A stretch of DNA of 64,000 nucleotides, taken from assembly GCF_030167915.1 (NCBI RefSeq), contig NZ_JARGNB010000004.1, forward strand, positions 496,001-560,000. Direction: 5' to 3'. Position numbers and translations under genes: made by a program. Source of the stretch: Aquabacterium humicola (GTDB taxonomy: Bacteria > Pseudomonadota > Gammaproteobacteria > Burkholderiales > Burkholderiaceae_C). The notes beneath the pieces were generated by a model. That model saw nothing but the letters and a program-made list of their open reading frames with translations, was not told the DNA's origin and did no database searches. Below are positions 15,692 through 63,057 of this stretch, in pieces (the stretch's first letter is position 1; every line of letters begins with the position of its first letter).

Positions 15692-15722
15692 AGGGGCGGC
15701 CGCGAGGTCGCCCCTTTTTTTT
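15692..15722 (+). terminator. Rho-independent terminator after the binding-protein gene
   Basis: A 7-bp stem AGGGGCG (15692-15698) pairs with CGCCCCT (15709-15715) around a 10-base loop and runs straight into eight T residues (15715-15722). This closes the porin/binding-protein unit. The interval 15587-15845 holds no convincing reading frame apart from this terminator and the leader of the next gene. Confidence 0.85.
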
Positions 15723-15845
15723 GTCGCCCCCGAAATGGGGGTTGCACCGTACGGGCGGCGGGCGCTCAATCGGCATGCGCAACAGGTTGTTCTCGATGTC
15801 GCCGGACGTTTGTGCGTCCGTGCGGTGAAGGAAGGAGAAACACAC

Positions 15846-49588: not shown

Positions 49589-52500
49589 ATGAACCGCTTC
49601 TGGTCCCTGCTGTTCGATGCCCGCGTGCTGGCCGTGCTCGGCCTCACCGCGCTGGCCGCCTTCCTGTTCCTCGGCGCGCGCGAGCTCGAAGTCGCGCTGG
49701 TCTGGGCCGGCCTGCTGCTCGGTGCCGCGCTGCTGATCGCGCTGGTCGCCTGGCTCGTCAAGCGCGTGCGCGCCCACCGCGCCGCCAGGCGCCTGCAGGA
49801 GGCCATCGAGGACGATGCCGAACAGGCCACGCTGACGATCCGCGCCGAGGACCGCGTGCCGGCCGAAGCGCTGCGCGACCGCCTGCTGAGCGCGGTGAGG
49901 ACGATCCGCAGCTCGCGCCTCGGGCAGCTCAGCGGCGCCGCCGCGCTGTACGAGCTGCCCTGGTACATGGTCATCGGCAACCCGGCCGCCGGCAAGAGCA
50001 GCGCGGTGATCAAGTCGGGCCTGAACTTCCCGCTCGCGGCCGATGGCAGCCGGCTCGAAGCGGCGGTGGTGCAAGGCATCGGCGGCACGCGCAACTGCGA
50101 CTGGTTCATGACCAGCGAAGGCATCCTGCTCGACACCGCCGGCCGCTACGCGGTGCACGAGGAGGACCATGCCGAGTGGCTTGGTTTCCTCGGCCTGCTG
50201 AAGAAGCACCGGCCGCTGGCGCCGATCAACGGCATCGTCGTTGCCGTCAGCGTCGCGGAGCTGATGCAGGGCAAGCCCGAGGGCGCGATCCAGCTCGCCA
50301 AGCGCCTGCGCCAGCGCGTGCAGGAGCTGACCGAGAAGCTCGAGGTCTTCGCGCCGCTGTACCTGGTATTCACGAAGGCCGACCTGATCGCCGGCTTCGT
50401 CGAGTTCTTCGAGGACTTCGATCGCGCCGAGCGCGACCGCGTATGGGGCGCAACGCTGCCCTTCGTGCCCGAAGCGGGCGGTGGGGCCGGCGGTGCGGCC
50501 GGCGGCACGAACGACGGTGCCGGCCGCATCGATGCCGTCACCGCCTTCGACCGTCACTTCGACGAGCTGCGCGACGGCCTGAAGGAGATCGCGCTCGCGC
50601 GCATGTCGCTGCAGCGGGGCGAGGCGCTGCCGACGGGTCTGCTGACCTTCCCGCTCGAGTTCGATGCCGCGAAGCCGGCGCTGCGCGCGTTCGTCGCCAC
50701 GCTGTTCGAGGACAACCCCTATCAGTTCCGCCCGGTCTTCCGCGGCTTCTACTTCACCAGTGCGGTGCAGGAAGGCTCGGCCAGCAGCCGCGCCAGCGAC
50801 GAGGTGGCACGCCGCTTCGCGCTGGGCGCGCGGCGCGAGCGCACCACCGCGCGCGTGGTCGCCGCCAACGGCTTCTTCCTGAAGGACCTGTTCCAGCGCG
50901 TGATCTTCGCCGACCGCCACCTGGTGCAGCAGTACGCCAGCCGCTCGCGGCAGCGGCTGCGGCTGGCGGCCTTCGCCGTCGCGGTCGGCGTGCTGGCGAT
51001 CGCGCTGGCCGGCTGGAGCTGGGCCTGGCTCGGCAACCGCCAGCTGCTGCAGGACGTGCAGGCCGACCTCGCGCAGGCGCAGCGGCTGCAGGAGGGGCGC
51101 GTCGACCTCGGCGCGCGGCTGGAGGCGCTGGAGCTGCTGCAGTACCGCATCGAGCAGCTCGCCGGCTGGCAGGACAAGCGCCCCTTCGGCCTCGGCTTCG
51201 GGCTGTACCAGGGCGAGGCGATCGAGCGCAAGCTGCGCGACGAATACTTCGCCGGCCTGCGCCAGGTGCTGCTGCAGCCGGTGGCGCGCGCGATCGAGGG
51301 CTACCTCGGCGAGGTCAACAGCCATGCCGAGCAGCTGCAGCCGCTGACGCGGCCGCCCGAGTCCGGCGCGCGCGTCCTGACCACGGCGCTGACCGGCACG
51401 CCGGCCGCCGCCACGGGCGCGGTCTCGGCCGCGGCGGCGTCCACCGCGCCCGCACCTTTGTCGCGTTATGCGGACGCCTCCCCCACCGACGTCGAGGATG
51501 CCTACAGCGCGCTGAAGACCTACCTGATGCTCGCCGAGCGCCAGCGCATGGAGCCCGGCCACCTGAAGGACCAGATCGCGCGCTTCTGGCGCGGCTGGCT
51601 CGAGCAGCAGCGCGGCAGCCAGCCGGCCGATGTCTACAAGCGCCGCGCCGAAGGCCTGATCAGCTTCGCGATGGCGCAACTGCAGGACCCGGCGTTCCCG
51701 ACGCTGGACAACAACTTCACGCTGGTCGATGCGACCCGCGCCAACCTGCGCCGCGTGATGCGCGGCATGCCGGCGCGCGAGCGGGTCTATGCCGAGGTCA
51801 AGGCGCGGGCGTCGACGCGGTTCGCGCAGGTCACGGTGGCCAACATCGTCGGCGAGGCCGGCCGGGGCGTGATCGCCGGCAGCGCGGTGGTGTCGGGCAC
51901 CTTCACCCGCGAGGCCTGGGACGGCTACATCGAGAAGGCCTTCAAGGACGCCGCCAACGGCGAGCTGCAGAGCACCGACTGGGTGCTGCAGACCGCTGCG
52001 CGCGACGACCTGACGCTCGAGGGCAGCCCGGACCACATCCGCAAGTCGTTGACCGAGCTGTACAAGACCGAGTACGTGCGCGAGTGGCAGCGCTTCCTGC
52101 AGGGCATCGCGGTGGCCGAGTTCCCGAACTTCGGCGTCGCCGTGCAGCAGATGAACCGCCTCGGCGACCCGGCCGCCTCGCCGATCAGGCAGGTGCTGAC
52201 GACCTTGAACGACCAGACCTCGTGGGACAACCCGACGGTGCTCAACGAGCGGCTGGGGCAGGTGCAGCGGGGCTTCGTCGAGTGGTTCAGGCAGAGCATC
52301 CTGCGCATGGCGCCGTCGCGCGTCGACGTCCGGGTCGATGTCGCGGGGCCGGACGGCGCGGTGCCGATGGGACCGATCGGCCGCGAGTTCGCCGCGCTGC
52401 ACAAGCTGATGACACCGCGCGACCCCGGCGCGACGCCGCTGCTGGGCGAGTACCTCAAGTCGCTGGGCGCTATCCGCACCCGCTTCAACGAGATGGCCAC

Positions 52501-53539
52501 CCAGGGCGACCCCGGACCGGCCGCGCGCAAGCTGATGGCCGCGACGCTCGAAGGCGGCCAATCCGAGTTCGCCGGCGCGGTGCGCCTGGTCGAGGAGCAG
52601 ATGCTGGCCGGCATGAGCGACAGCGCGCGCGCCGCGCTGCGCCCGCTGCTGCTGCGGCCGCTGATGCAGGCCTTCGCGGTGCTGCGGCCGCCGGCGGAGA
52701 CCGAGCTGAACCGCGCCTGGGCCGCGCAGGTGCACGAGCCCTTCCAGCGCACGCTGGCGGGCAAGTACCCGTTCGACGCCCAATCGAAGGTCGAGGCGGT
52801 GCCGCAGGAGATCGGCAAGCTGTTCGGGCCGGGCGGCGCGGTCGCGAAGTTCGCCGACGAGTCGCTGGGGCCGCTGGTGCTGCGGCGCGGCGACAGCATG
52901 GTCGCGCGCACCTGGCTCGACATGGGCGTGCGCCTGAAGCCCGAGTTCAGCGCGCAGTTCGCCGGCTGGGTCGCGCCGCTCGAGGGGGCGGCCGGCGGGG
53001 GCAGTGGCGGCGCAGCCACCGCAGCGGCGCCCGCGGGCCCGGCGCAGACCAGCTTCCAGGTCCTGCCGCAGGGCGCGCCGGCGCTGAGCGAATACACCGT
53101 CGAGATCGACGGCCAGGTGCTGCGCTACCGCAACGGCGCCGCGGTGTGGACGCCCTTTGTCTGGCCGAACGCCGCCGGCACGCCGGGCGCGCGCATCACC
53201 GGCGTGACGGTCGAAGGCCGCAGCGTCGAGCTGCTGAACGTGCCCGGCCGCTTCGGGCTGCAGCGCATGTTCGAGACCGCCGAGCGACGCAAGCTGCCCG
53301 ACGGTGCCCACGAGCTCAGCTGGTCGCAAGGGCCGGTCGCGGTGACGCTGCATTTGCGCGTCATCAGCCAGCCCGGTGCCAGCGCCGCCGCGGCCACGGC
53401 TGCACCGGCCACCGCCAACGGCGGCCTGCGCGGGCTGAAGCTGCCGGCGCTCATCGCCGGCGGCGACGACGCGTTGCCGGCCGCGGTGCCGGTCGCGCTG
53501 GCGGCGTCGGCCGCCGGGCGCGCAAAGGTGTGGCCATGA
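49589..53539 (+). CDS. tssM: T6SS membrane-complex protein TssM (IcmF)
   Basis: 1316 residues. Two N-terminal membrane helices (about 10-28 and 33-52), a cytoplasmic NTPase-like domain with Walker A GNPAAGKSSAVIKSG (K136), LLDTAGRYAVHEEDHAEWLG, KHRPLAPINGIVVAVSVAEL and YLVFTKADLIAGF, a third membrane helix (about 458-477, RLAAFAVAVGVLAIALAGWS), then the large periplasmic IcmF-related region ending in a beta-rich TssJ-binding domain (about 1150-1290). It bridges both membranes with TssL and TssJ. The Walker A motif is complete, so ATP/GTP binding is possible. Its stop overlaps a tiny reading frame that couples to tagF. Confidence 0.97.
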   Translation: MNRFWSLLFDARVLAVLGLTALAAFLFLGARELEVALVWAGLLLGAALLIALVAWLVKRVRAHRAARRLQEAIEDDAEQATLTIRAEDRVPAEALRDRLLSAVRTIRSSRLGQLSGAAALYELPWYMVIGNPAAGKSSAVIKSGLNFPLAADGSRLEAAVVQGIGGTRNCDWFMTSEGILLDTAGRYAVHEEDHAEWLGFLGLLKKHRPLAPINGIVVAVSVAELMQGKPEGAIQLAKRLRQRVQELTEKLEVFAPLYLVFTKADLIAGFVEFFEDFDRAERDRVWGATLPFVPEAGGGAGGAAGGTNDGAGRIDAVTAFDRHFDELRDGLKEIALARMSLQRGEALPTGLLTFPLEFDAAKPALRAFVATLFEDNPYQFRPVFRGFYFTSAVQEGSASSRASDEVARRFALGARRERTTARVVAANGFFLKDLFQRVIFADRHLVQQYASRSRQRLRLAAFAVAVGVLAIALAGWSWAWLGNRQLLQDVQADLAQAQRLQEGRVDLGARLEALELLQYRIEQLAGWQDKRPFGLGFGLYQGEAIERKLRDEYFAGLRQVLLQPVARAIEGYLGEVNSHAEQLQPLTRPPESGARVLTTALTGTPAAATGAVSAAAASTAPAPLSRYADASPTDVEDAYSALKTYLMLAERQRMEPGHLKDQIARFWRGWLEQQRGSQPADVYKRRAEGLISFAMAQLQDPAFPTLDNNFTLVDATRANLRRVMRGMPARERVYAEVKARASTRFAQVTVANIVGEAGRGVIAGSAVVSGTFTREAWDGYIEKAFKDAANGELQSTDWVLQTAARDDLTLEGSPDHIRKSLTELYKTEYVREWQRFLQGIAVAEFPNFGVAVQQMNRLGDPAASPIRQVLTTLNDQTSWDNPTVLNERLGQVQRGFVEWFRQSILRMAPSRVDVRVDVAGPDGAVPMGPIGREFAALHKLMTPRDPGATPLLGEYLKSLGAIRTRFNEMATQGDPGPAARKLMAATLEGGQSEFAGAVRLVEEQMLAGMSDSARAALRPLLLRPLMQAFAVLRPPAETELNRAWAAQVHEPFQRTLAGKYPFDAQSKVEAVPQEIGKLFGPGGAVAKFADESLGPLVLRRGDSMVARTWLDMGVRLKPEFSAQFAGWVAPLEGAAGGGSGGAATAAAPAGPAQTSFQVLPQGAPALSEYTVEIDGQVLRYRNGAAVWTPFVWPNAAGTPGARITGVTVEGRSVELLNVPGRFGLQRMFETAERRKLPDGAHELSWSQGPVAVTLHLRVISQPGASAAAATAAPATANGGLRGLKLPALIAGGDDALPAAVPVALAASAAGRAKVWP

Positions 53540-53601
53540 GCGCGCCCGGCCGCTCCGAAGCGCGAATCCCGCAGCGCGCAGTGCGCAGGGGTGCGCCATG
53601 A
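53536..53601 (+). CDS. Coupled mini-ORF linking tssM to tagF (21 residues)
   Basis: ATG at 53536-53538 overlaps the tssM stop (ATGA), and the TGA at 53599-53601 overlaps the tagF start at 53598 (again ATGA). The encoded peptide starts MSAPGRSEARIPQ and is Arg/Pro-rich. It has the same layout, and a related start (MSxxGRxxxxxP), as the two tandem mini-ORFs between tagF and ompA. It probably serves to hand ribosomes from gene to gene, or is a repeat that happens to stay open; a functional peptide is not shown. Confidence 0.45.
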   Translation: MSAPGRSEARIPQRAVRRGAP

Positions 53602-54587
53602 GCCGTCCGGCAGCCGTCGAGCTGGTGTATTTCGGCAAGCTGCCCTCGCGCGGCGACTTCCTGCGCAACGTCGACGGCGACGGCCTGACGCGCCGCCTCG
53701 ACCAGTGGCTGACCTCGGCGCTGGAGCTGATGGCCCGCGATCCGCGCTGGAAGGAGGTCTACGACCAGGCCGGGGCCTGCAGCTTCGCCTTCCTCGGCGT
53801 GCGCAGCCGCGCGCTGGTGGCCGGCCACCTGCTGGCGAGCACCGATGCCTCGGGCCGCCGCTTCCCGTTCGTGATCGTCGGCAAGCTGGAGGTCGATGCG
53901 CCATTGGCCTTCATGCAGCGCGCGCCGATGGCGTTGACGCAGCTGTGGCGCGAGCTCGCGCAGCGCGCCGACGCGGCGCATGCCGCCGATGATGCGGTGC
54001 CGCTGCTGAACCAGCTGAACGACTGGCGCGGCCGCATCGAGACCGACCCGCTGGCCTTCGAAGCCGGCTACCGCGACTTCCTCGAGCTGCAGACCATCGG
54101 CTCGCTGCAATCGCAGCTGGTCGCCGCCGCGCCGCAGGCCGACCTGCGGCGTGCGCTGCTCGCGCTCGGGCTGCTGCTGCAGCCGGTGCCGGCCAGCGGC
54201 GCGCACCGGCTCGAGAAGGGCCTGAAGCTGCCGCTGCCACACGATCCGGCGACGCAGGCCTATGCCGCGACCTGGTGGCTGGACCTGGTGGCGAAGTTCC
54301 TCGCCCGCGGCGACTTCGAGATCGGCCTGTTCCTGCCGCGCACGCTGCCCGGTCGCGCGCCGAGCCTGGCGGTGGGCTTCTCCGGCGACGCACCGTCGCT
54401 GCTGCATGCCGCGCTCGACCAGGTGGCCGCGCGCGAGCAGTTCGTCGACCTGCTCGCGCCGCTGTGGGTCGACGAATCCGCCGATGCCGACTACGCGCTG
54501 CGCAAGCTCGGCAGCTACCTGCAGCAGCCGCCGCTGTCGCTGGCGCAGGCGCGCGCCACCTTCAACGAAGCTTTCCTGGGGGAGTGA
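53598..54587 (+). CDS. tagF: T6SS-associated protein TagF (ImpM/SciT)
   Basis: 329 residues. The N-terminal DUF2094 fold shows ELVYFGKLPSRGDFLRNVDG, DQWLTSALELMARDPRWKEV and AFLGVRSRALVAGHLLASTD; the C-terminal ~150 residues include TWWLDLVAKFLARGDFEIGL. TagF is a cytoplasmic negative regulator that blocks assembly (through Fha or directly) until the threonine-phosphorylation or other trigger arrives. No ppkA, pppA or fha gene is in this cluster, which suggests a phosphorylation-independent mode. Start and stop are both overlapped by coupled mini-ORFs. Confidence 0.92.
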   Translation: MSRPAAVELVYFGKLPSRGDFLRNVDGDGLTRRLDQWLTSALELMARDPRWKEVYDQAGACSFAFLGVRSRALVAGHLLASTDASGRRFPFVIVGKLEVDAPLAFMQRAPMALTQLWRELAQRADAAHAADDAVPLLNQLNDWRGRIETDPLAFEAGYRDFLELQTIGSLQSQLVAAAPQADLRRALLALGLLLQPVPASGAHRLEKGLKLPLPHDPATQAYAATWWLDLVAKFLARGDFEIGLFLPRTLPGRAPSLAVGFSGDAPSLLHAALDQVAAREQFVDLLAPLWVDESADADYALRKLGSYLQQPPLSLAQARATFNEAFLGE

Positions 54588-54661
54588 TGAGCTCGCACGG
54601 CCGCCCGAAGGGCGAATTCCCCCTCGGGGGGACGGCGCGTAGCGCCAAGGGGGCAACATGA
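54587..54661 (+). CDS. Coupled mini-ORF A in the tandem repeat (24 residues)
   Basis: ATG 54587 shares its A with the tagF TGA (TGATG) and the TGA at 54659-54661 overlaps the next ATG (ATGA). The peptide starts MSSHGRPKGEFPLGG. It is identical to mini-ORF B except for one residue (S3 versus P3). The open frame is kept because the unit is 71 bases: 24 codons plus stop, minus the 4-base overlap. Translation is plausible; a peptide function is not shown. Confidence 0.4.
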   Translation: MSSHGRPKGEFPLGGTARSAKGAT

Positions 54662-54728
54662 GCCCGCACGGCCGCCCGAAGGGCGAATTCCCCCTCGGGG
54701 GGACGGCGCGCAGCGCCAAGGGGGCAAC
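54587..54728 (+). repeat. Two tandem 71-bp repeats between tagF and ompA
   Basis: Copy 1 spans 54587-54657 and copy 2 spans 54658-54728. They differ at only two positions (the 7th and 54th base, T in copy 1, C in copy 2); the second change falls in the 3-base loop of a small stem GGCGC-GCA-GCGCC. Each copy starts ATGAGC and ends in AAGGGGGCAAC, a ribosome-site-like stretch placed 4 bases before the next ATG. The first ATG of copy 1 overlaps the tagF stop, and ompA begins with a third ATGAGC exactly one period (71 bases) after copy 2. The sequence type resembles dispersed intra-operon repeats I recall from Burkholderiales genomes. Confidence 0.9.
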
Positions 54729-54732
54729 ATGA
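54658..54732 (+). CDS. Coupled mini-ORF B in the tandem repeat (24 residues)
   Basis: ATG 54658 overlaps the stop of mini-ORF A, and its own TGA (54730-54732) overlaps the ompA-type ATG at 54729. The peptide starts MSPHGRPKGEFPLGG. Together the chain tagF, A, B, ompA is joined by TGATG, ATGA and ATGA overlaps, which would allow one ribosome to reinitiate through all four frames. Confidence 0.4.
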   Translation: MSPHGRPKGEFPLGGTARSAKGAT

Positions 54733-55553
54733 GCACCGCAAAGCCCCGCCGCCGCAGCGGCCTCGCCGCGCCGGGCACGCTGCTGGCCGCGGCCCTGCTG
54801 ACGGCCGCGGCGTCCGCGCAGACGACCGCGCCCGCCGCACTCGCTGCCGCGTCGAACGCGCCCAAGGTCGTGGTCTCGGGCACCGTGCCCGATGAATCGA
54901 CGCGCGCGGCCATCGTCGCCCGCGTGCGCGCGCTCTACGGCGCCGAGCGCGTGGTCGACCAGCTCGGCGTCGCGGCGCTGGCCGCGCCGCCGAAGTGGAG
55001 CGAGCAGGTGCAGAAGCTGATCACGCCGGACCTGAAGCGCGTGACGCAAGGCCAGCTGCGCATCGAAGGCAACGTGGTCGAGGTGGCCGGCGCAGTCGAC
55101 AGCGCGCAGACCCAGGCGCTGGTGCTCAAGGGCCTGTCGGCGCGGCTCGACAACCCGACCTACAGCGTGCGGGATGCGCTGCGCATCGGCGCCAGCGGCC
55201 AGCAGCAGCTCGACGCGGCGATCGCCAACCGCATCATCGAGTTCCAGACCGGCAACGCGACGTTGACGCCCGAGGGCCAGCGTGTGCTCGACGACCTGCT
55301 GCCGGTTCTGCGCCAGCTGCAGGGCCGGCGCTTCGAGATCGTCGGCCACACCGATGCCGAAGGCGGCCGCGCGAACAACCTGCTGCTGTCGGCCGCACGG
55401 GCCGACAGCGTCAAGGCCTACCTGGTGCAGCAAGGCATCCCGGCCGCGGCGCTGGTGACCTCCGGCCTCGGGCCGGACCGGCCGCTGGCCGACAACGCCA
55501 CCGCCGCCGGCCGTGCGCGCAACCGGCGCATCGAGTTCCGCCTGCTCGCCTAG
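54729..55553 (+). CDS. OmpA-family peptidoglycan-binding protein with BON-like domains, T6SS-associated
   Basis: 274 residues. A signal peptide covers about 12-38 (APGTLLAAALLTAAASAQ). Residues ~45-160 hold two BON-like units (KVVVSGTVPDESTRAAIVAR and GQLRIEGNVVEVAGAVDSAQ). The C-terminal ~115 residues are an OmpA_C domain: IEFQTGNATLTPEGQRVLDD, FEIVGHTDAEGGRANNLLLS, ARADSVKAYLVQQGIPAAAL and ARNRRIEFRL, with the Asp and Arg that hold diaminopimelate. Since TssL here lacks a peptidoglycan-binding tail, this protein is a good candidate for anchoring the membrane complex to the wall. It converges on tssA. Confidence 0.9.
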   Translation: MSTAKPRRRSGLAAPGTLLAAALLTAAASAQTTAPAALAAASNAPKVVVSGTVPDESTRAAIVARVRALYGAERVVDQLGVAALAAPPKWSEQVQKLITPDLKRVTQGQLRIEGNVVEVAGAVDSAQTQALVLKGLSARLDNPTYSVRDALRIGASGQQQLDAAIANRIIEFQTGNATLTPEGQRVLDDLLPVLRQLQGRRFEIVGHTDAEGGRANNLLLSAARADSVKAYLVQQGIPAAALVTSGLGPDRPLADNATAAGRARNRRIEFRLLA

Positions 55554-61706: not shown

Positions 61707-62975
61707 ATGACCCTCTCGTACGTCAACCCGACTGCCGACAGCCCGTGGGGCACCTACCTGTCGCAGGTCGACCGCGTGATCCCCTACCTGGGGCCCCTGG
61801 CCCGCTGGGCCGAGTCGCTGAAGCGCCCGAAGCGCGCGCTGATCGTCGACGTGCCGATCGAGCTGGACGATGGCACGGTCGCGCACTACGAGGGTTATCG
61901 CGTGCAGCACAGCCTGTCGCGCGGTCCCGGCAAGGGCGGCGTGCGCTACCACCCGGACGTCACGCTCGAGGAGGTGATGGCGCTGTCGGCCTGGATGTCG
62001 ATCAAGAACGCCGCGGTGAACCTGCCCTACGGCGGCGCCAAGGGCGGCATCCGCGTCGACCCGAAGAGGCTGTCGACCAAGGAGCTGGAGCGCCTGACGC
62101 GCCGCTATACCAGCGAGATCGGCATCATCATCGGCCCGCAGCAGGACATCCCGGCACCGGACGTCAATACCAACGCCCAGGTGATGGCCTGGATGATGGA
62201 CACCTACTCGATGAACACCGGCGCCACGTCGACCGGCGTCGTCACCGGCAAGCCGATCCACCTGGGCGGCTCGCTGGGCCGCGTCAAGGCCACCGGCCGC
62301 GGCGTGTTCGTCACCGGCCGTGAAGCCGCGCGCCGCATCAACCTCGAGCTCGAAGGCGCGCGCGTCGCGGTGCAGGGCTTCGGCAACGTCGGCTCGTCGG
62401 CCGCCGAGCTGTTCGGCCAGGCCGGCGCGAAGATCGTCGCCGCGCAGGACCACACCGGCACCATCGTCAACTCGAACGGCCTCGACCTCGCGACGCTGAT
62501 CCCCCACGTGCGCGACACCGGCGGCGTCGCGGGCTTCAAGGGCGCCGAGGTCTGCGACAACGAGGCGTTCTGGGACCTGCCGGTCGACATCCTGATCCCC
62601 GCCGCGCTCGAAGGCCAGCTCAACGCCGACCGTGCCCGCCGCGTGCAGGCCAAACTGGTGCTCGAAGGCGCGAACGGCCCGACGACGCCGGCGGCCGACG
62701 ACATCCTCGCCGACCGCAACATCCTCGTCGTGCCCGACGTGATCTGCAATGCCGGCGGCGTGACGGTCAGCTACTTCGAGTGGGTGCAGGACTTCTCGTC
62801 CTTCTTCTGGACCGAGGACGAGATCAACCTGCGCCTGGACAAGATCATGGTCGGCGCGCTGCGCAAGATCTGGGACACCGCCGACCAGCACCGCGTCACG
62901 CTGCGCACCGCGACCTTCGCCGTCGCCTGCGAGCGCATCCTGATGGCGCGCCAGGAACGCGGCCTGTATCCGTGA
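61707..62975 (+). CDS. gdhA: Glu/Leu/Phe/Val dehydrogenase, glutamate dehydrogenase
   Basis: 422 residues from ATG 61707 ([20 protein letters not shown]). The substrate domain shows [40 protein letters not shown] (catalytic Lys in GGAKGG) and [20 protein letters not shown]. The Rossmann domain has [20 protein letters not shown], typical of NAD-preferring enzymes, and [20 protein letters not shown]. It interconverts glutamate with 2-oxoglutarate and ammonia; the hexameric ~420-residue class is often catabolic. The Lrp gene downstream suggests amino-acid-dependent control. An AGGAC ribosome site lies 7 bases upstream. Confidence 0.95.
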
Positions 62976-63005
62976 CCCACCCCCGAGTCGGCCTGGCGGC
63001 CGCCA

Positions 63006-63057
63006 CCCCCTCAAGGGGGCGACACCAGCGGCCCGGCGGAGCCGGTTCCGCGGTGTC
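63006..63057. repeat. Structured intergenic repeat after gdhA
   Basis: Two structures lie side by side. CCCCCT and AGGGGG (63006-63019) form a tight hairpin. Then GACACC (63021-63026) pairs with GGTGTC (63052-63057), enclosing CGG/CCG and an inner stem CCGGC-GGA-GCCGG (63033-63045). There is no T-run. The sequence looks like an intergenic repeat seen in many Burkholderiales genomes (from memory, not checked). It may act as a transcript end or stabiliser for gdhA. Confidence 0.55.

Follow-up and report, generated by a model that had tools for sequence, protein, structure and literature searches.

The window analyzed here, a 64,000-nucleotide stretch of the Aquabacterium humicola genome, carries part of a type VI secretion system (T6SS) locus in which three very short open reading frames (mini-ORFs) join tssM, tagF, and an OmpA-domain gene through overlapping stop and start codons. 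A preliminary description of this DNA had proposed such a chain, and the sequence, the list of open reading frames (ORFs), and the translations confirmed it. The chain is real and not a product of chance, and its mini-ORFs belong to a repeat family with at least 129 matches in the same genome. They are likely to be copies of a non-autonomous, hairpin-rich interspersed repeat that inserts at the boundary codons of genes and whose reading frame carries the ribosome across. The genes and mini-ORFs of the locus are as follows.

49589..53539, plus strand: tssM (IcmF family), the upstream gene, from Pfam IcmF domains and the ORF list; its stop lies within the ATGA at 53536-53539.
53536..53601, plus strand: mini-ORF 1, 21 amino acids (MSAPGRSEARIPQRAVRRGAP and a stop), a short-subtype copy of the repeat without the CCCCCTCGGGGGG hairpin, from translation, a covariance-model match, and alignment.
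53598..54587, plus strand: tagF, from a Pfam TagF_N match; its start lies in the ATGA at 53598-53601 with mini-ORF 1 and its stop in the TGATG at 54585-54589.
54587..54661, plus strand: mini-ORF 2, 24 amino acids (MSSHGRPKGEFPLGGTARSAKGAT and a stop), from translation; the first tandem 71-nt unit spans 54587-54657.
54658..54732, plus strand: mini-ORF 3, 24 amino acids (MSPHGRPKGEFPLGGTARSAKGAT and a stop), from translation; the second tandem 71-nt unit spans 54658-54728.
54729..55553, plus strand: the OmpA-domain gene, from a Pfam OmpA match; its start lies in the ATGA at 54729-54732 with mini-ORF 3.

From tssM through mini-ORF 1, tagF, mini-ORF 2, and mini-ORF 3 to the OmpA gene, the junctions read ATGA, ATGA, TGATG, ATGA, and ATGA; the TGA of tssM is overlapped by the ATG of mini-ORF 1 at 53536 and the stop of mini-ORF 2 by the ATG at 54658. 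ATGA and TGATG overlaps are standard junctions for stop–start translational coupling. Compared to plain coupling of this kind, the coupling unit here is a repeat that lies between genes which overlap directly in a relative. The two tandem units share 92% identity in register. Covariance-model matches were obtained for the unit of mini-ORF 3 (83.5 bits, E 2.9e-18, on the window), for that of mini-ORF 2, which is genome copy C34:550587-550660 (81.6 bits), and for the more divergent mini-ORF 1 (window 53536-53599, 32.9 bits, E 3e-6). Mini-ORF 1 is identical at 54-57 of 66 nt to short-subtype copies 113, 116, 119, 121, 122, and 126 and likewise at 55 of 66 nt to two long copies once gaps are allowed; it was placed in the short subtype because the hairpin is missing and not because of the level of identity. 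Two minus-strand matches elsewhere in the window (15704-15771 and 62973-63045; E 0.04 and 0.1) are borderline and may be decayed copies or chance. The OmpA gene has an additional BON match, which is weak and under the Pfam cutoff.

The repeat is abundant in its host and widespread among relatives. In the A. humicola genome (7.39 Mb in 44 contigs), BLAST of the two 71-nt units gave 41 matches, and the covariance model R1, built from 38 copies, gave at least 129 matches at the genome cutoff of E <= 1e-3, scattered genome-wide; this count is a lower bound, being the 129 listed among 144 up to E 1 with no more than 150 candidates scored. Matches were found in 19 of 19 genomes of the genus (A. humicola included); a family-wide sample of 299 genomes in 126 genera gave them in 259 genomes and 116 genera. 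A first sample of relatives gave none in 12 genomes from other families of the order; in an order-wide sample, 49 of 399 genomes matched at E <= 1e-4, with 36 of these outside the family, where the spread is patchier than within it and where the denominator is inexact, as not all 399 genomes were listed. The earlier impression that related repeats occur in other Burkholderiales thus held, with matches across the order. On the repeat, Rfam 15 gave no match at gathering scores in the window or at E <= 1 across 9 loci, and one 151-nt repeat query gave none among named plasmids. The literature searched, which leaves out most subscription papers, contained no description of the repeat family, and five peptide strings gave no match there. 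In a Burkholderiales genome (L035:1319-1419), the Rfam family V_AS9 (Vibrio RNA AS9) matched barely over its gathering score (51.7 versus 50).

The repeat is approximately 60-110 nt long, and its parts come in this order: a stem whose arms vary and which encloses a conserved loop (GCCCGGCCGYYCCGAA or a near match), the TCCCCCTCGGGGGGA hairpin (hairpin 2, missing from the short subtype), a third hairpin, and a AAGGGGGC-like end. In the unit of mini-ORF 3 these parts lie as follows.

54670..54674, plus strand: the GGCCG core of the conserved loop of hairpin 1, whose arms vary and covary across copies, from alignment A1 and stem covariation.
54689..54703, plus strand: hairpin 2, TCCCCC TCG GGGGGA, with the inner five pairs from the consensus fold and the outer T-A pair by eye.
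54705..54717, plus strand: hairpin 3, GGCGCGCAGCGCC, from the alignment, with two inner pairs in the consensus fold; by pattern, it differs among subtypes a, b, and c.
54718..54725, plus strand: the AAGGGGGC end, Shine–Dalgarno (SD)-like here, from the alignment; a similar end is also found in copies antisense to genes.

RNAalifold missed the first stem, the arms of which were misplaced by the automatic alignment, and this stem was tested by script against re-paired arms. Its core was located in 116 of the 129 listed copies, 81 of which have a stem of at least 6 bp; the mean perfect stem was 6.77 bp, compared to a mean of 3.86 bp (maximum 4.17) in 200 re-pairings of the arms. With 43 distinct perfect arm pairs of at least 6 bp, the stem covaries around a conserved loop. 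Folding of single units showed modest excess stability (z -0.8 and -2.2), with -2.7 for the tandem and -1.2 for a short copy. The layout is constant irrespective of the direction of the neighboring gene, which points to a role of the hairpins at the DNA level. An origin of the stem-1 arms by copying from the host target was rejected by eye, as the arm bases of n=1 and n=28 are absent from the corresponding site in the relative Aquabacterium terrae. Two variants were also seen. Copies 95, 100, 101, and 104-107 (e.g., L119, L152, and L171) are chimeric, with the usual 3′ half and a different 5′ half (GTTCGCCAGGCGAGAACAGTCC...) that has its own inverted repeat, and are apparently a second repeat family fused to the main one. 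Copies 69, 72, 75, 77, and 81 (L017, L162, L131, L148, and L135) hold an additional GGATCC-rich hairpin within hairpin 2; in the leader copies among them (72, 75, 77, and 81) the leader ORF is still open at 34-35 codons.

Genes around the copies were called with a home-made program trained on the window and four loci, which returned the tssM, tagF, and OmpA gene coordinates of the ORF list, and random 76-nt placements in the intergenic space of the same loci served as the control. A start or stop codon lay within 8 nt of an end in 103 of the 129 listed copies, compared to 18% of random placements, and boundary codons lay within 8 nt of both ends in 29, compared to 1.2%. Between called genes lay 119 of the listed copies; 10 were within a called gene, one of which (n=60) extends the upstream gene in frame. 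Assignment by text patterns showed that the subtypes favor different boundary types: 37 of 49 copies of subtype a/a' are sense at a stop, a start, or both, 25 of 37 of subtype b are antisense at a start codon, and 22 of 32 of subtype c are at stop codons alone; the remaining 11 copies fall under other types. The preliminary description had viewed the repeat as adapted to operon junctions. It does fit such junctions and keep their coupling, but the family is broader than that, with one subtype mostly antisense at starts and another at stops.

The antisense copies form a group of their own. In 21 A. humicola copies the repeat presents an antisense TGATG at the start of an open gene, and in 18 of these a leader ORF of 24-35 codons runs from the far end to that TGA. 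A -10-like hexamer stands 9-15 nt upstream of the leader start codon in 14 of the 18, compared to 0.3% of random positions (40 loci) and 16 of the 172 called starts whose intergenic space exceeds 60 nt. At A. terrae sites n=15 and n=30, where the element is missing, the same box stands no more than about 10 nt ahead of the ATG of the gene itself (by eye). Together, the hexamer and the box suggest leaderless genes with an element set at the start codon. One class of internal length modulo 3 was common to 16 of the 18 leader copies, compared to 27 of 56 other measured copies, which is suggestive only.

Mini-ORFs that bridge two genes were counted in two ways. In a strict tally, a mini-ORF ran from on or near the upstream stop to the next called start in 22 of 29 sense and 7 of 12 antisense junctions of A. 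humicola. A wider tally, counted per copy and orientation, required a start codon overlapping the upstream stop and allowed chains; 78 of 94 copy-orientations were coupled, compared to 16 of 94 in each of two control frames. By sample, the coupled cases were 33 of 42 in A. humicola, 38 of 42 in the family (27 best-match loci, L207-L233, and 20 high-scoring loci, L246-L265), and 7 of 10 outside it (20 loci, L266-L285); the loci of the latter two samples were drawn from high-scoring matches and lean to the consensus. Among A. humicola sense copies, 29 of 33 were coupled, compared to 3 and 4 in the control frames. The expectation that matches would lie between same-strand genes with the phase kept was thus borne out by both placement and frame. 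Coupled sense mini-ORFs of A. humicola come in at least eight lengths (21, 22, 24, 25, 26, 29, 33, and 44 codons, and chains), and the internal length modulo 3 of coupled sense copies is mixed (12, 10, and 5 of 27); they are in phase over the whole length only. Tandem copies are chained or fused in frame, and the same layout recurs at many loci of other genera, some of them of other families. Two copies depart from the usual form. In copy 112 (L025) the mini-ORF start continues without a stop into the downstream frame, and at copy 41 (L027) two chained mini-ORFs precede the next gene, the second of 10 codons and outside the repeat, where A. terrae has a single ATGA.

Comparison with A. terrae S2, the closest named relative (TagF 92% identical), provided candidates for empty sites. 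Of 57 flanks submitted, 41 were located there, one of them twice (42 matches in all), and nhmmer detected a copy at 5 of the 41 sites and none at 36. Two of the five copies are of the same kind (n=14 and n=115, the latter with compensatory stem changes), n=8 is of another subtype, n=113 is in reversed orientation, and n=117 has a repetitive flank and doubtful orthology. Among the 36, no downstream flank adjoins the site at n=2 and n=29, and a remnant persists at n=24 (by eye). At 18 of the 21 sense sites among the 36, one overlapping stop–start pair, with open frames of 60 or more codons to either side, stands where A. humicola has stop, element, and start; two others show a close pair and one neither, and in this count some open frames may be due to chance in G+C-rich DNA and n=2 is included despite a different downstream gene. 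Empty sites with a plain stop–start overlap fit a mobile, translation-compatible element. The limits of the element relative to the empty sites are ambiguous as regards target duplication; n=60 (L032), whose upstream gene stays open across the element as far as the next gene's ATGA, has no clear duplication. In A. terrae, the tssM–tagF junction of the T6SS locus is occupied by a complete long copy and the junction of tagF with the OmpA gene by none; a second relative (L059) has a copy at neither junction (all by eye). The tagF–ompA copies are therefore probably new in the A. humicola lineage. Different elements occupy one junction in both species at tssM–tagF, n=8, and n=113; this is not claimed as proof of hot spots, because a rough estimate (129 and 143 copies, several thousand junctions assumed) gives about as many by chance.

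The proposed mechanism takes as its basis what can be read from the DNA, namely the family itself, its positions, its phase, the empty sites, and the covarying stem. First, the element would enter gene boundaries at targets the size of a codon, mostly (R)TGA stop–start overlaps for subtype a (sense), ATG starts for subtype b (antisense), and stop codons for subtype c, and would be moved by an enzyme acting on the DNA hairpin. Second, the inserted unit would lie between the upstream stop and a start codon, and its open frame and length would permit restart and read-through of the unit. A ribosome terminating at the first gene would restart on the mini-ORF, pass through its hairpins, and terminate at the next gene's start codon, i.e., undergo termination–reinitiation across the mini-ORF. 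Third, insertions that break coupling would be removed by selection. The peptides are probably by-products of carrying translation through and not functional products. A more far-reaching version, which is put forward tentatively, is that the repeats represent a mobile hairpin class with machinery for which start and stop codons are DNA targets. Each subtype would be directed to a boundary of its own (stop–start overlaps, leaderless starts, or gene ends), and each would be a mini-ORF cassette readable in two ways.

Several observations weigh against insertion of a translatable element at boundary codons. Of the listed copies, 26 of 129 have no boundary codon within 8 nt, and the gene caller misplaces some starts. 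Sixteen of the 94 testable cases are uncoupled, and 38 more (29 from A. humicola, 2 from the family, and 7 from outside) lacked a start codon on the stop and were excluded from the 94. Antisense cases of A. humicola are coupled in only 4 of 9, and for sense copies outside the family one control frame reached the same 4 of 6 as the coupled frame. The copies share descent, and phase counts are therefore not independent. At most sites A. terrae alone cannot separate insertion from loss, the outgroup (L059) covering the T6SS junctions only. The A. humicola genome, listed as 100% complete, has no match to the Y1 transposase (Y1_Tnp, PF01797), compared to 5 of 14 control genomes, in a search limited to this transposase family. 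Finally, random insertion with strong selection could yield part of the placement bias.

This last point leads to an alternative, that an ordinary selfish repeat, resembling repetitive extragenic palindromes (REPs) or miniature inverted-repeat transposable elements (MITEs), inserts anywhere and that the pattern reflects survivorship in a gene-dense genome. Such an origin appears unlikely, although the copies are scattered over the genome, the repeat is too short to encode an enzyme, and palindromic repeats outside genes are common in bacteria according to a study of GTAG- and CGTC-tagged palindromes (PMC3733652). Random intergenic placement predicts approximately 18% boundary contact and 80% was observed, the subtypes occupy distinct boundary types, and selection against broken genes alone would not empty the interior of longer intergenic regions. 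Random insertion with selection thus accounts for tolerance and not for subtype-specific addresses. The repeat does resemble REPs and tagged palindromes as a high-copy small palindromic repeat outside genes, and that study describes CGTC-tagged palindromes as apparently without a dedicated transposase (PMC3733652); its text contains no occurrence of "Burkholderi" or "Comamonad". The present repeat differs in sitting codon-close at starts and stops in a genome without a Y1 transposase, for which reason a REP-associated tyrosine (RAYT/Y1) transposase was rejected as its mobilizer. The aligned ends (A1, by eye only) have no constant GTAG or CGTC columns, and some variants hold GTAG or CGTC internally. 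Compared to the Chunjie MITE (178-235 bp as given in PMC10969869), which is likewise non-autonomous and multi-copy, the repeat is much shorter and carries a coupling mini-ORF. No terminal inverted repeats were clear by eye, and no autonomous partner was found with Y1_Tnp, the sole query for one. Rickettsia palindromic elements (RPEs) are also short palindromic interspersed repeats, many of whose insertions leave frames open, and about half of the insertions are described as in-frame fusions within ORFs in the same source (PMC10969869). By that description, the present repeat is set apart by lying mostly at gene boundaries, usually as a separate mini-ORF coupled at both ends, and in both orientations. 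In-frame insertion inside protein genes, as for RPEs, is not its pattern: 119 of the 129 listed copies lie between called genes, and of the 10 inside a called gene one is the in-frame extension of an upstream gene at n=60.

A cis-acting RNA regulator, i.e., an attenuator or protein-binding hairpin selected to tune downstream genes including T6SS stoichiometry, is improbable. The conserved loop and covarying stem, the SD-like end of sense copies, and the placement of antisense copies as leaders, of which 14 in 18 follow closely on a -10-like hexamer, would suit such a role. However, the loop is present in both orientations to the gene, which would make for different RNAs, most tested sites are not common to the close relative A. 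terrae, and the repeat has no Rfam match. Tuning of T6SS stoichiometry, as first suggested, was not supported, as at least 129 sites are scattered, and A. terrae lacks the tagF–ompA copies and has a different subtype at tssM–tagF. The AAGGGGGC stretch, originally described as a ribosome-site-like end, is indeed SD-like in sense copies, but it is not clearly an adaptation as a ribosome site because a similar AGGGGG end is retained in copies antisense to their gene. A multiplied family of functional small peptides (MSxxGRPKGEFPLGG... or MSAARPFRRRSLPLGG...) is very improbable even though similar peptides occur at many junctions with open frames, since the peptides of antisense and short subtypes are unlike these although coupling is the same, tandem copies are fused or chained, and conservation tracks the DNA hairpins.

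Insertion of a translatable repeat at boundary codons would let repeats colonize even the 4-nt overlap of two genes, where a bacterial genome is at its most compact, while operons remain unbroken. Many coupled mini-ORFs would then still await annotation in these bacteria, and two questions become testable: how a mobile element reaches start and stop codons, and how far reinitiation extends through a structured spacer. If the hairpin class does target codons, the element would spread through operons and leaderless genes with co-translation undisturbed.

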